64,000 nucleotides of DNA from an uncultured archaeon (GTDB lineage: Archaea > Hadarchaeota > Hadarchaeia > Hadarchaeales > WYZ-LMO6). The translations under genes and the position numbers were made by a program. The stretch spans positions 1 to 64,000 of the forward strand of contig CALJER010000003.1 of NCBI GenBank assembly GCA_938074535.1. Direction: 5' to 3'. Every line of letters begins with the position of its first letter. The stretch's first letter is position 1. The notes below the pieces were generated by a model. The model searched no databases and was not told where the DNA came from. It was given only the letters and a program-made list of their open reading frames with translations. Positions 18,247-24,784 of this stretch are shown here, one piece after another.

Positions 18247-18634
18247 GCCGGTCCGAAGGCCTTCCCTGGATTTTGGGAAAAGGGAGCAAAAAATCGGCAC
18301 AGGACACAGGTCCGGAGGGTCGAGAAGGGTTCGGGCGGTTAGTGCCGGTGGGCTGAGCACCTCGCCCTTTCGGGCTCGATGCGTACACCCCCGGTCTATC
18401 AACGGGGTCTTCTAGCCCCAGCCCTTCGCCTCCCGCCCCTTTCGGAGCGGAAGGACACGGTGCCTGTTTTCGGGGGTCGCTTCGGCCTTAGATGCTTTCA
18501 GGCCTTATCGACTGGCGCGTGGCTACCCGGCGATGCCCTGTCGGACAACCGGTACACTAGAGGCGCCGGCGTCCCGTTCCTCTCGTACTAGGGACACCTT
18601 CCCCTCAGGCACCGAGCACCCCCGAAAGATAGCA

Positions 18635-18676
<42 letters not shown>

Positions 18677-18743
18677 TTTTGATGGGCGAACAACCCCACC
18701 CTTGGCCGCTTATGCACGGCCAGGATAGGAAGAACCGACATCG

Positions 18744-19514
18744 CAGAGCTCTGGCTCCGGACTATTTCTCCACCCCGCTCTCCGCGGGGGCCGACGTGTG
18801 TCGGGACGCACCTGCGCCCCGACTCATCTGCCTTCCGGCATCAGTCTCTACGGGGTGGGAAGCTTGTAAGAGAACTCGGGCAGAACGTGGGGCCGGACCA
18901 GCTCCAGGAACCTCCCGTTGCACCTCTTGAGGAGGCGCAGCCTGTGGCACTCGCCGTCCCTGTTCAGGTTGGCTATGAGGTAGAACCTGCGGAGCGCCCT
19001 GATCAGTCTGAACTGCTCCTCCACGCCGAACGCCTGGGTGTTGAAGTAGACGGCGTTCCTCGAGAGGCTGCCTCTGTCCATGAACCAGACCGCGAGGGCG
19101 AAGGGAGTCAGCATCTTCCCTATTCCCTCCGGAACGGTCTTCCTTCCGCCCCTGTAGAACTCCAGGTAGAGTCTGTCCAGCTCAGGATGGGTCCTCGTGA
19201 CGAGCTCGCAGCACTCCTTCCCGTTGCGGTGGTAGCTTCCCGGGCGGGCAAGGTCTCCCAGCATCCTGCGCTTCCATTCCACGTAGAAGGCCCTCCTGGA
19301 ACTCTGCGAGAACTCGAACACCACCTTGTTCCCTTGCTTCCGCAGGTGCCCGTCTCCGAGCAGCGAGCCTATCAGCAGCTCCCTCTGGGTCTCCGTGAGT
19401 TCCATCTTCCCACTTCCCTCGGAGTCACCCCCTTTATTCCCTTCCCCGCGGGGGGCTTCTCCGATATCAGTCGGTGCTCTGGCCGGCATTGCTGCCGCCA
19501 TACCCCAAAGGCTG
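18744..19514 (-). other. Group I intron (771 nt) in 23S at E. coli 2500/2501
   Basis: 5' exon ..UACCU|CAGCCUUUGGGGUA (U.G pair at splice site), intron ends ..CUCUG| (omega G), exon CGAUGUCGG; S-like element GAAAUAGUCC, R-like CCCCGUAGAGACUG. Confidence 0.82.
18848..19405 (-). CDS. LAGLIDADG homing endonuclease in 23S-2500 intron; second motif degenerate
   Basis: MELTETQRELLIGSLLGDGHLRK; second motif ALAVWFMDRGSLS. Confidence 0.85.
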   Translation of the reverse strand: MELTETQRELLIGSLLGDGHLRKQGNKVVFEFSQSSRRAFYVEWKRRMLGDLARPGSYHRNGKECCELVTRTHPELDRLYLEFYRGGRKTVPEGIGKMLTPFALAVWFMDRGSLSRNAVYFNTQAFGVEEQFRLIRALRRFYLIANLNRDGECHRLRLLKRCNGRFLELVRPHVLPEFSYKLPTP

Positions 19515-20034
19515 AGGTAGCAAACCGCGGGGTCGATATGGACTCTCGCCCGCGACCACTCTGTTATCCCCGGGGTACCTTTTCTGTCATCCGGAGCCCT
19601 CACCAAGAGGGACATCCGGGTTCGCTAGGCCCGGCTTTCGCCCCTGCGCGCCTTGGTAGTGAGCGCGCAGTCAGACCGGCTTTTGGCCTTGTCCTTGGCG
19701 GCGGAGTTCTGACCCGCCTAAGCCGATCTTTGGACCCCCTCGATATCCTTTCGAGGGGCTGCCGCCCCAGCGAAACTGCCCACCTGCCGTTGTTCCCCTG
19801 GCGGGGTTAGGGGCGTGGTCGTGGATGGGCGGTGTTACATCGGCGCCTCCACCGGGCCCGAAGACCCGGCTTCGAAGGCTCCCGCCTACCCTCTGCACCC
19901 GCAACCGCGTCCCAGCGACAGGCTGCAGTAAAGGTCCACGGGGTCTTCGTTTCCCTTCGGGGGACCCCGGCATGTTCGCCGGCAAGCGGGTTCACCGGGT
20001 TCCAGGTCGGGACAGTGGGGGACTCGTTGATTCC

Positions 20035-20066
<32 letters not shown>

Positions 20067-20081
20067 TTACGCTACCTTAAG

Positions 20082-20921
20082 CTCCCCTTCTTCAGGGGTG
20101 GACCATATCATCGCACCGTTTCCCGGTGCGCCTGGCGTATGGTCTCTGAGGATCTCCCTTCACGAGCCCATCCAGCTTCTTCATCTTCTCCGGGTGTCTG
20201 AAGCCCACGGTTTCTCTGAACTTTTGGACCCGCTCCAAACCTTTTATGACAAGTGAGAACTGGGGGTTTTTCCCCCACGCCCTGGGTTTCTTGACCCAAA
20301 CCGTGCTTTCGATCCCGAGCTGCTCAAGGATTTCCTGGAGCTGTTTTATCAGCGGCTTGGCGATCATATCGATTCCCACGTAGGGATGGGCGTACGCCCT
20401 TCCTCCGTGCACCTCTCTGTCGGCTCCGCAGTAGCCCTCCGCATCGAAGAGCCCTTTGGCGACCTCCAGCCTGGAGCCGGCGTCCACCGCGAACATCCTG
20501 GGTATCCTGAGGGTCGTGAGCTTCCTGCCCTTCGGATACCCGAGTTCGATGAGGAAGTCGTGCACGTCCCTGCGGTTGGTGCTGGCCACCCAGCGGTTCG
20601 GTGAAGCTCTGCTGATTCTGGGTTTGAAGCCGAAGATCCTTTCCACTCTCTCCGCCACCATCTTCACGAACTCCTCGCTCCCGTCCCTGCAGAACACCGT
20701 GTAGGAGCTTCCGTAGACGCCCCCATCGCCGAGCATCACTCCCACGAGGTAAGCCAGGGACTCCGCCATCGCTGTGTTTAAGAGGGACTCTGTATAAATC
20801 AGGGGCTTGCTCAGGGATTTCCTGCGGGTCGACCACATCCTTCCGGGCTCTGTTACCCTTCCGGGTGTCCCGGGCTTCCGGTCTTCCCCGCATACAGCCA
20901 GGTTTTACAACCCCCTTCCCG
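20082..20921 (-). other. Group I intron (840 nt) in 23S at E. coli 1923/1924
   Basis: 5' exon AACCCU|CGGGAAGGGGGUU (P1 with U.G), intron ends GGGGAG|CUUAAGGUAGCG; S-like element GAUAUGGUCC. Confidence 0.8.
20092..20769 (-). CDS. LAGLIDADG homing endonuclease in 23S-1923 intron
   Basis: MAESLAYLVGVMLGDGGVYGS and EVAKGLFDAEGYCG motifs. Confidence 0.88.
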   Translation of the reverse strand: MAESLAYLVGVMLGDGGVYGSSYTVFCRDGSEEFVKMVAERVERIFGFKPRISRASPNRWVASTNRRDVHDFLIELGYPKGRKLTTLRIPRMFAVDAGSRLEVAKGLFDAEGYCGADREVHGGRAYAHPYVGIDMIAKPLIKQLQEILEQLGIESTVWVKKPRAWGKNPQFSLVIKGLERVQKFRETVGFRHPEKMKKLDGLVKGDPQRPYARRTGKRCDDMVHP

Positions 20922-23061
20922 AGGGTTATAGTTACCCCCGCCCATTGGCGGCGCTTCGACCGGTTGGGCCCGGCTTTCACGTACCGCCTGTAGGCAGAAT
21001 TCAGCTCCCGTACTCACCCTTTCGGGCTAGCGGGAACCTACGTTTTTATTAAACAGTCGGTCCCCCCTGGTCACTGCGACCTGCCCTCCGCAGGGCAGGC
21101 ACCCCTTCTCCCGAAGTTACGGGGCCAACTTGCCGAATTCCCTGACCTGGTGTCTCCCGTCACGCCTTAGGCTTCTCACCTAGGGGCACCTGTGTCGGAT
21201 CTAGGTACGGTCACCCAGGGTCCCATTTCCGGTTCCCCTTTTCACGGGCCCCGGAGATGAACCGAACCCGCCTAACGGCAGGCCCATCCCGCCCTCCTCC
21301 GGTTCTCTCCATTACGGAACTCCCCGGACTTCGACGGTTGGATGGAGCGACGACCCCACTCGGTCTGCCCCGAGGCGTCGGAGAACCGGCCTGCGTTGCC
21401 GCGGGTACCTGGGTGGTTCCGGAATATTAACCGGATTCCCTTTCGATGGCCTCTGGTTGAGGGCCACCTCAGGACCGACTAACCCTCGGCTGACGACCAT
21501 TGCCGAGGAACCCGGGCCCCTTCGGCGGTGGGGATTCTCACCCCACTAGGCTGTTACTACCACCAGGATCCTCATTCCCACGCGGTCCACCCGACCTCAC
21601 GGCCGGGCTTCTCCCCACGCGGGACGCCCTCCTACCGGATCAGGCTACTCAGCTTCGCCTGCCCCGGGGTCTCGGCAGCTGGCTTGAGCCCCGTCCATCT
21701 TCGGTGCCCCCACCCTCGACGGGTCCGCTTTTACGCGTTGTTTAAAGGATGGCTGCTTCTGAGCCTACCTCCCCGCTGTTTCAGGGTGGAGACGCCCTTT
21801 GGATTTCTGCACTTAGCCAGCATTTGGGGGCCTTAACCCCGGTCTGGGTTGTTCCCCTCTCGGAGCGGGAGCTTACCCCCCGCACCCCGTCTCCGGCGGT
21901 CTACGGCGCCGACCGCTTCGGAGTTCGACAGCGAGGGCAAGGGTTTCCCCCTGTCACCCCGCAATCGGTGCTCTACACGGCCGGCAGCCTCGCGCCGGGC
22001 CTGACTGCGGCCAGCTTCGGAGGGAACCAGCTGTCACCGGGCTTGATGGGTCTTTCGCCACTAGCCCAGGGTCATCCGACCGAATTGCACATCAAGACCG
22101 GTTCGGCCCTCCACCCCACAGAGGGGCTTCAGCCTGCCCTGGACTAGATCGCCCGGTTTCGGGTCTCACCGCCGTGACTCCGGGCGCTGTTAACACCCCG
22201 TCCCTCGCCCTTTCGGGCTGCGGACCGTTGCTTTCGCTGCGGCTCCGGGGTTCCAACCCCTTAACCTCGCCACGACGGTGAACTCCCTGGCCCGTGATTC
22301 AAGACGGACGGTACGACCCCGATCCCCCTCCCTCGTACCACCGCCTCGCGACGGCTTCCTTCGGGAGGGATCAGCTCTTTCGGGCCGTACCTTACTGTCG
22401 CCACCTGGTTTCAGGCTCTTTTCACCCCCCTTCCGGGGTGCTTTTCAGCTTTCCCTCGCGGTACTGCGTCCGCTATCGGTCTCGAGACGTATTTAGGGTT
22501 GGGAGTTGGTGCCTCCCGGCTTCGGACGCCAATCCCGAGGCGCCCTACTCAGGATCCCTCCCCTCGTATCCTGCACAGTTGCCCCTACGGGGCTTTCACC
22601 CTCTCCGGCGCGCCTTTCCAGGCGACTTCGGGTTCCCGTGCGAGGAATTGGAGGAGGTCCTGCAACCCCACATCCCCGACGGCTTTCGCCGCCGGGTTCG
22701 GTTTGCCCTGTGCCCTCTTCACTCGCCGTTACTGAGGGCATCGCTCTTGCTTTCTCTTCCTCCCGGTACTGAGATGTTTCACTTCCCGGGGTTCCCGTTC
22801 GCAGCCCTCTGAGGAGCCGCGAACGCAGGGGGTCAACCCCCCTGCGGGATTCCCATTCGGTCATCCCGGGTTCTAAGGCTGCCTGCGCCTCGCCCGGGCT
22901 TTTCGCAGCTTGCCACGACCTTCTTCGGCGCTCGAGCCGAGCCATCCCCCAGGTGGCTTGGTTCCCCGCTCGACGGCTTCCGGACCTGTGCCTGGCCTCA
23001 TCAGCTCTTTTGAGCCTGAGCCCTTCGCGCGAAGAGCGCTCCCTCTCCCCGCGCTGCATCC

Positions 23062-23907: not shown

Positions 23908-24630
23908 TCAGGGACCCTCACGTTGCCGTGAGGCCTGGACTATGTCTTCATCTGAGATAGCGAACTTGACGAGCCCTGCTATCTCAGATGCCCAGCGTTG
24001 GCGTGATGAGGGCTTGCGGTAGAGGAGAATCTTTCGCTTCATGCACTCCGGCACGAAAGGGGCTATGAGCTTCAGGAAGCTCTTGGTCTCGTTGGTGGAA
24101 CGCAGCCAGAGCCTGTATCTCCCCGTCCCCCTTTTTGCCGGGGCTATCCTGAAGTGCAGCCCCCACACCTTCAGGAAGTACCTCCTGGCGACCCTCACCT
24201 CCCGCGGGGAAAAGCTGTCGGTGCAGAGAACTGCCTGTGTCCTGTTCCTGACCAGGCTTCCGTCGTCAAGCCACCAGACGCAGAGACCGAGGGGGCGGAG
24301 CTGGTTGAGCCATTTCCTCCTCACCCCCTTAGAGATTAGCTCGAAGATCTCGAGGAGCTTTGGACTGGCCGAACTCACGTAGACCGCTTTTCTCCTGCCT
24401 TTGGACGCGGCGTCCTGCACTTCCACGATCCTTCCCCCCAGCTCCTTCAGGAGGAAGCCCGCCTTCCACTCCAGGTACTCCTTTTGCTCGGCGCCGTGCC
24501 TGATCACGAGCCTTGGATGGGCGTATCCTCTGTACTTCCTGAGGGATCCGTCTCCCAGCAGGGTTCCGAGGATCACCTGTTTCGCCTCCTCCGACAAAGG
24601 GGCGGGCTGCCCCTTCTGTCCGGCCCTCAT
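23908..24630 (-). CDS. LAGLIDADG homing endonuclease in 16S-793 intron
   Basis: EEAKQVILGTLLGDGSLRK and LGLCVWWLDDGSLV motifs. Confidence 0.88.
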   Translation of the reverse strand: MRAGQKGQPAPLSEEAKQVILGTLLGDGSLRKYRGYAHPRLVIRHGAEQKEYLEWKAGFLLKELGGRIVEVQDAASKGRRKAVYVSSASPKLLEIFELISKGVRRKWLNQLRPLGLCVWWLDDGSLVRNRTQAVLCTDSFSPREVRVARRYFLKVWGLHFRIAPAKRGTGRYRLWLRSTNETKSFLKLIAPFVPECMKRKILLYRKPSSRQRWASEIAGLVKFAISDEDIVQASRQREGP

Positions 24631-24784
24631 CACTAGTCTCTACGGGGTCGGGAGTATTTACCCCCGACTTCCCTCGGCGTTACCCCTGTGGGGCTTCGCC
24701 GATACAGCTGGGTCGCAGCGGAACCTAGGGCCGATTCCGCTGCTTACACCCTGCCGTCGCCGGCAGGGGAGACACCTTTGAGGT
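23909..24784 (-). other. Group I intron (876 nt) in 16S at E. coli 793/794
   Basis: GGAUUAGAU|ACCUCAAAGGUGUC (P1 GAUACC/GGUGUC with U.G at splice site); intron ends CCCUG| then ACCCCGGUAGUCC; R-like GUAGAGACUA, S-like AAGACAUAGUCC. Confidence 0.85.

Follow-up and report, generated by a model that had tools for sequence, protein, structure and literature searches.

A 771-nucleotide insertion with the conserved fold of a group IA3 intron and a LAGLIDADG gene between positions 2500 and 2501 of a Hadarchaeota 23S rRNA gene

The 64,000-nucleotide stretch of DNA analysed here (the window) contains, on its minus strand, a 771-nt insertion (19514 to 18744) which splits the 23S rRNA gene precisely between positions 2500 and 2501 (E. 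coli numbering). With very high confidence, this element is a self-splicing group IA3 intron at LSU/2500, for which splicing is predicted and whose LAGLIDADG endonuclease, encoded in the P6 loop, has probably lost its cutting activity. The intron type, the site and the host phylum were already published in 2018 (PMC6125680), and the window intron, from another genus, joins this known family. New details are the Arg found in place of D145 in its endonuclease and a 221-nt relative without an ORF, accompanied by a free-standing endonuclease gene.

Insertion site and borders

The host gene is an archaeal LSU (23S) rRNA gene with two introns (18321 to 22973, minus strand; Rfam RF02540, 2440.6 bits). 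It belongs to a minus-strand rRNA operon with an archaeal 16S gene (25526-23171), tRNA-Ala and the 23S gene (22973-18321), and both the 16S and the 23S genes exceed the length of their models because of insertions. For the E. coli numbering the joined exons were aligned to K-12 rrlB, the last base of the 5' exon being 2500, which places the insertion in the peptidyl-transferase region, as an earlier note on this DNA had proposed. The order along the minus strand is ...GUUUGCUACCU / CAGCCUUUGGGGUA ... GAAAUAGUCC...GCUCUG / CGAUGUCGG... (slashes, here and below, mark splice sites), and the coordinates and exon sequences claimed in that note were found as described. The first base of the intron is 19514 and its last is the omega G at 18744; these borders are established directly by the exon mapping, the empty sites and the homologous introns.

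A 200-nt query made of the joined exons is uninterrupted in ten related Hadarchaeota genomes, with 98% identity in one of the same family (G025), and is split into two halves at the same point in six genomes, that of the window included. The ten empty sites therefore indicate a clean insertion. A sequence search with the same query found no uninterrupted 23S gene in the source assembly. Since the assembly shows no second, uninterrupted copy, splicing should be essential for the production of an active 23S rRNA. We infer that the ribozyme core of the precursor rRNA (P3-P9) would bind guanosine in P7 and that this guanosine would attack on the 3' side of U2500, which provides the U of the U.G pair in P1. 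The free 3' OH of U2500 would then attack after the terminal G, joining U2500 to C2501, and this exon ligation would restore the peptidyl-transferase loop.

Fold of the intron and alternative readings

The window intron and five relatives, which were found via their endonuclease and excised at identical exon borders, were compared after removal of the ORF by hand and alignment of the six cores. P1 (19501-19519) is formed by UACCU/CA (19519-19513) with UGGGGUA (19507-19501) and has a U.G pair at the splice site; the pairing of UACCU/C with GGGGUA, reported in the earlier note, is common to all six introns, and the seventh pair changes from A-U to G-C in two relatives. It is followed by the P2 hairpin with a GCAA loop (19480-19500), placed by the alignment of the six cores, and by the 5' strand of P3 (CCGAC, 19470-19474), whose partner is GUCGG at 18795-18791 and in which two of the five pairs covary. 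P4 (19463-19459/19424-19420) and P5 (19456-19451/19432-19427) together span 19420 to 19463, with covariation in P5 and an invariant P4. The 5' strand of P6 (19408-19418) has its partner at 18860-18852, beyond the body of the ORF, the end of which encodes this 3' strand; the assignment is based on the pair alignment and on the comparison with the ORF-less relative (L007), where P6 is closed as a short hairpin. The stop codon is situated in J6/7 and extends onto the first base of P7.

The 5' strand of P7, the R element GAGACUG (18842-18848), has an A bulge like that of the guanosine-binding site. Downstream of it, the pair alignment places the P7.1 hairpin (18829-18840), the 10-bp P7.2 hairpin (18800-18823), in which five pairs are changed on both sides, the 3' strand of P3 (GUCGG, 18791-18795) and the P8 hairpin (18773-18789). 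The 3' strand of P7, the S element UAGUCC (18759-18764), was located by the alignment of the six cores, and the P9 hairpin (18745-18758), with two covarying pairs, adjoins the omega G at 18744. Both this G and the S-like GAAAUAGUCC had been pointed out in the earlier note, and the terminal G is the same in all six introns. The core pairs of P3, P4, P6, P7 and P8 are formed in 6/6 sequences, including the P3/P7 pseudoknot. The presence of P7.1 and P7.2 between the 5' strand of P7 and the 3' strand of P3 is a group IA trait. Both hairpins are found here at that place, and the intron is therefore of group IA, which agrees with the published subtype.

The group I class claimed in the earlier note is borne out by this complete fold: when the structure was fitted by hand to the same six related introns, its 71 pairs were formed in 98.1% of the cells. 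Compensatory changes on both sides occur in 15 of the 71 pairs, compared to a mean of 6.7 in shuffled alignments, none of which (0/500) reached 15, and sliding the partners by 1-3 columns left only 36-45% of the cells paired. Such changes are present in each of P1, P3, P5, P6, P7.2, P8 and P9; the pairs of P4 and P7 are invariant across the six introns and hence contribute no covariation support. RNAalifold, which cannot draw the P3/P7 pseudoknot, recovered P1, P2, P4-P6, P7.1, P7.2, P8 and P9 unaided. Folded as a single sequence, the intron is more stable than shuffled sequences (z = -4.9), with a minimum-energy structure that is not group I throughout. A covariance model built on the 3' half, with the window sequence among its members, scored 147 bits at the intron and 13 bits at the next match in the window.

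The Intron_gpI scan proposed in the earlier note gave a divided result. The Rfam model does not match the focal intron because of the ORF in P6 and the weakness of the model on archaeal introns, but it matches the ORF-less intron of genome G017 from end to end with a score of 37.2 bits (E=3.3e-8), short of the gathering score of 50. RF00028 also gave no significant archaeal match in the 2018 study, whereas IA3 and IB4 models did (PMC6125680). As Intron_gpI misses archaeal members, a match at the gathering score is diagnostic rather than defining.

Archaeal rRNA introns are usually of the bulge-helix-bulge (BHB) type with LAGLIDADG genes (PMC6125680), which speaks for an intron cut by the tRNA splicing endonuclease and joined by a ligase. 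Because a C is repeated at the junction, two registers had to be considered; the cut was placed after the second bulge base, and a central 4-bp helix flanked by 3-nt bulges was taken as the criterion. The central helix and the flanking helices are absent at both registers in 6/6 introns, whereas the group I fold is fully formed and shows covariation. A better-supported BHB fold, named in the earlier note as the refuting structure, is thereby excluded at both registers which the exons allow, and the BHB intron, whose motif can be formed at neither register in any of the six introns, was rejected on sequence as having virtually no chance of being correct.

Excision of the intervening sequence with no joining of the ends, which would leave the 23S rRNA in fragments (fragmented rRNAs occur in other organisms), is hardly credible, as the cut would fall in the peptidyl-transferase loop, without base pairing to hold the fragments, and the conservation of P1, P7 and the omega G points to ligation. 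An unspliced degenerate or assembly-chimaeric insertion, for example in a pseudogene copy, would suit a source assembly in several contigs, probably a metagenome bin, and an endonuclease without one catalytic Asp. It is nevertheless highly improbable, because five other genomes carry the same intron at the same site, the intron core is fully conserved and no further 23S copy was found in the assembly.

The LAGLIDADG protein and the spread of the intron

The P6 loop of the group IA3 intron contains an ORF for a 185-aa homing endonuclease of the LAGLIDADG_2 family (18848 to 19405, minus strand; Pfam PF03161, E=1.8e-32). The closest solved relative is I-SceI (E=1.1e-10 over the whole protein), which is encoded by the yeast mitochondrial omega group I intron, thus, like the window protein, in a group I intron of the LSU; the omega intron is located at a different site, LSU/2449. 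Two LAGLIDADG motifs are present in the ORF product. The first, LLGDG, keeps its acidic residue, whereas the second reads MDRG, compared to MDDG in four relatives, and the acidic residue which ends this motif is absent from the window protein. The position of I-SceI D145 is thus occupied by Arg in the window, by Asn in G026 and by Asp in the other four, and I-SceI, unlike the window protein, has Asp at both catalytic positions.

The D145A mutant of I-SceI is completely defective in cleavage (PMC3928301). Pairwise dN/dS values are ~0.2 or less among the endonuclease ORFs, with saturation of synonymous sites in the more distant pairs, and the ORF is, judged from the sequences, under purifying selection. 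The window protein has eight private changes at otherwise invariant positions, compared to one and two in two congeners, which suggests a relaxed constraint on it. In view of the Arg at the D145 position, the defect of D145A I-SceI and the eight private changes, we infer that the window endonuclease is probably inactive and no longer a double-strand cutter. With Arg replacing the second catalytic Asp, homing is probably dead in the source genome, where the intron would persist through splicing and not through homing.

Close relatives of the endonuclease (E <= 1e-8) occur in the six genomes with the intron and in none of the ten with an empty site. Among named genomes, the gene has its closest relatives in Hadesarchaea assemblies, which assigns the source genome to the Hadarchaeota (Hadesarchaea). 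A structure model (R2) applied to 299 relatives detected the same six Hadarchaeota and no others, under strict filters by which weak matches may be lost. Relatives of the P6-loop protein would cleave 23S genes that lack the intron and would thereby spread it, and this patchy distribution would fit homing and loss. In genome G017, the LSU/2500 intron is only 221 nt long and without an ORF (L007 750-970, G017:C28), and a free-standing gene for the cognate endonuclease lies ~0.5 kb past the end of the 23S gene (L007 1501-2049). Its product is 60% identical to the window protein and keeps both catalytic Asp, an arrangement that may represent homing in trans.

The related introns resemble stages of a homing cycle, with the endonuclease intact, a catalytic residue lost, the gene outside the intron or the site empty. 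Such stages are useful for asking how introns persist in a single-copy essential gene. It is conceivable, if rather unlikely, that the LAGLIDADG protein has lost cutting and been kept as an RNA-binding maturase aiding the folding of the ribozyme, and that, among the related introns, the endonuclease gene standing next to the 23S gene in G017 mobilises the ORF-less intron in trans. To our knowledge, neither a maturase role nor mobilisation in trans would have a precedent among archaeal group I introns.

Related introns and further insertions in the operon

Comparison with catalogued rRNA intron positions, also suggested in the earlier note, showed that LSU/2500 is a published site of IA3 introns in Hadesarchaea (PMC6125680). 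These are IA3.2 (LQMQ01000054.1, 4017-4815) and IA3.3 (LQMP01000030.1, 66091-65273), both at LSU/2500 and both drawn by Nawrocki et al. (2018) from the Hadesarchaea study cited there as reference 34; a homologue was assigned to IA3 at E=4.6e-8 (PMC6125680). One of our six introns (L006, G019:C52), at contig positions 4017-4815 and 799 nt long, is almost certainly IA3.2 itself, since coordinates and length coincide. The window intron shares phylum, site, subtype and endonuclease type with IA3.2 and IA3.3 and is of similar length (771 nt compared to 799 and 819 nt). The LAGLIDADG proteins of the window and of L006 are 66% identical. The window intron belongs to a different genus than IA3.2, and further differences are its shorter P5 region and the change of the second catalytic Asp to Arg. 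The archaeal IA3 introns at LSU/2593 share the subtype but occupy a different site in the same 23S domain, and IA3.1 of that group also has its endonuclease gene in P6 (PMC6125680). With the window intron, the few archaeal group I introns gain a well-supported case, and the IA3 fold at LSU/2500 gains covariation support.

The earlier note had counted this intron as the third, and two further ones with group I hallmarks are indeed present in the operon, at 16S 793/794 and 23S 1923/1924. The 16S intron (23909-24784, minus strand, 876 nt) contains a LAGLIDADG_2 ORF, a hairpin AGAU/ACCUCAAAGGUGUCU with U.G at the cut, an R element GAGACUA, an S element ACAUAGUCC and a terminal G. Its core strings are similar to those of the 2500 intron, it matches Intron_gpI weakly (31.3 bits), and 16S 793/794 is absent from the sites of the 2018 archaeal list (PMC6125680). 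The other 23S intron (20082-20921, minus strand, 840 nt), at a known archaeal IB4 site, contains a LAGLIDADG_3 ORF, AACCCU/C paired to GGGGGUU with U.G, an R element GAGACCAU, an S element AUGGUCC and a terminal G.

In G026, the same 23S gene contains another group I intron, 218 nt long and ORF-less (L045 about 1501-1721, G026:C230), near E. coli 2584/2585, with GCUGGGU/GCCCAGC pairing and U.G at the cut (49 bits with model R2). A 2750-bp circular 'plasmid' (L036, NZ_AP027888.1), annotated entirely as E. coli 23S rRNA, differs from K-12 23S rRNA and probably reflects an artefact of assembly or foreign rRNA.
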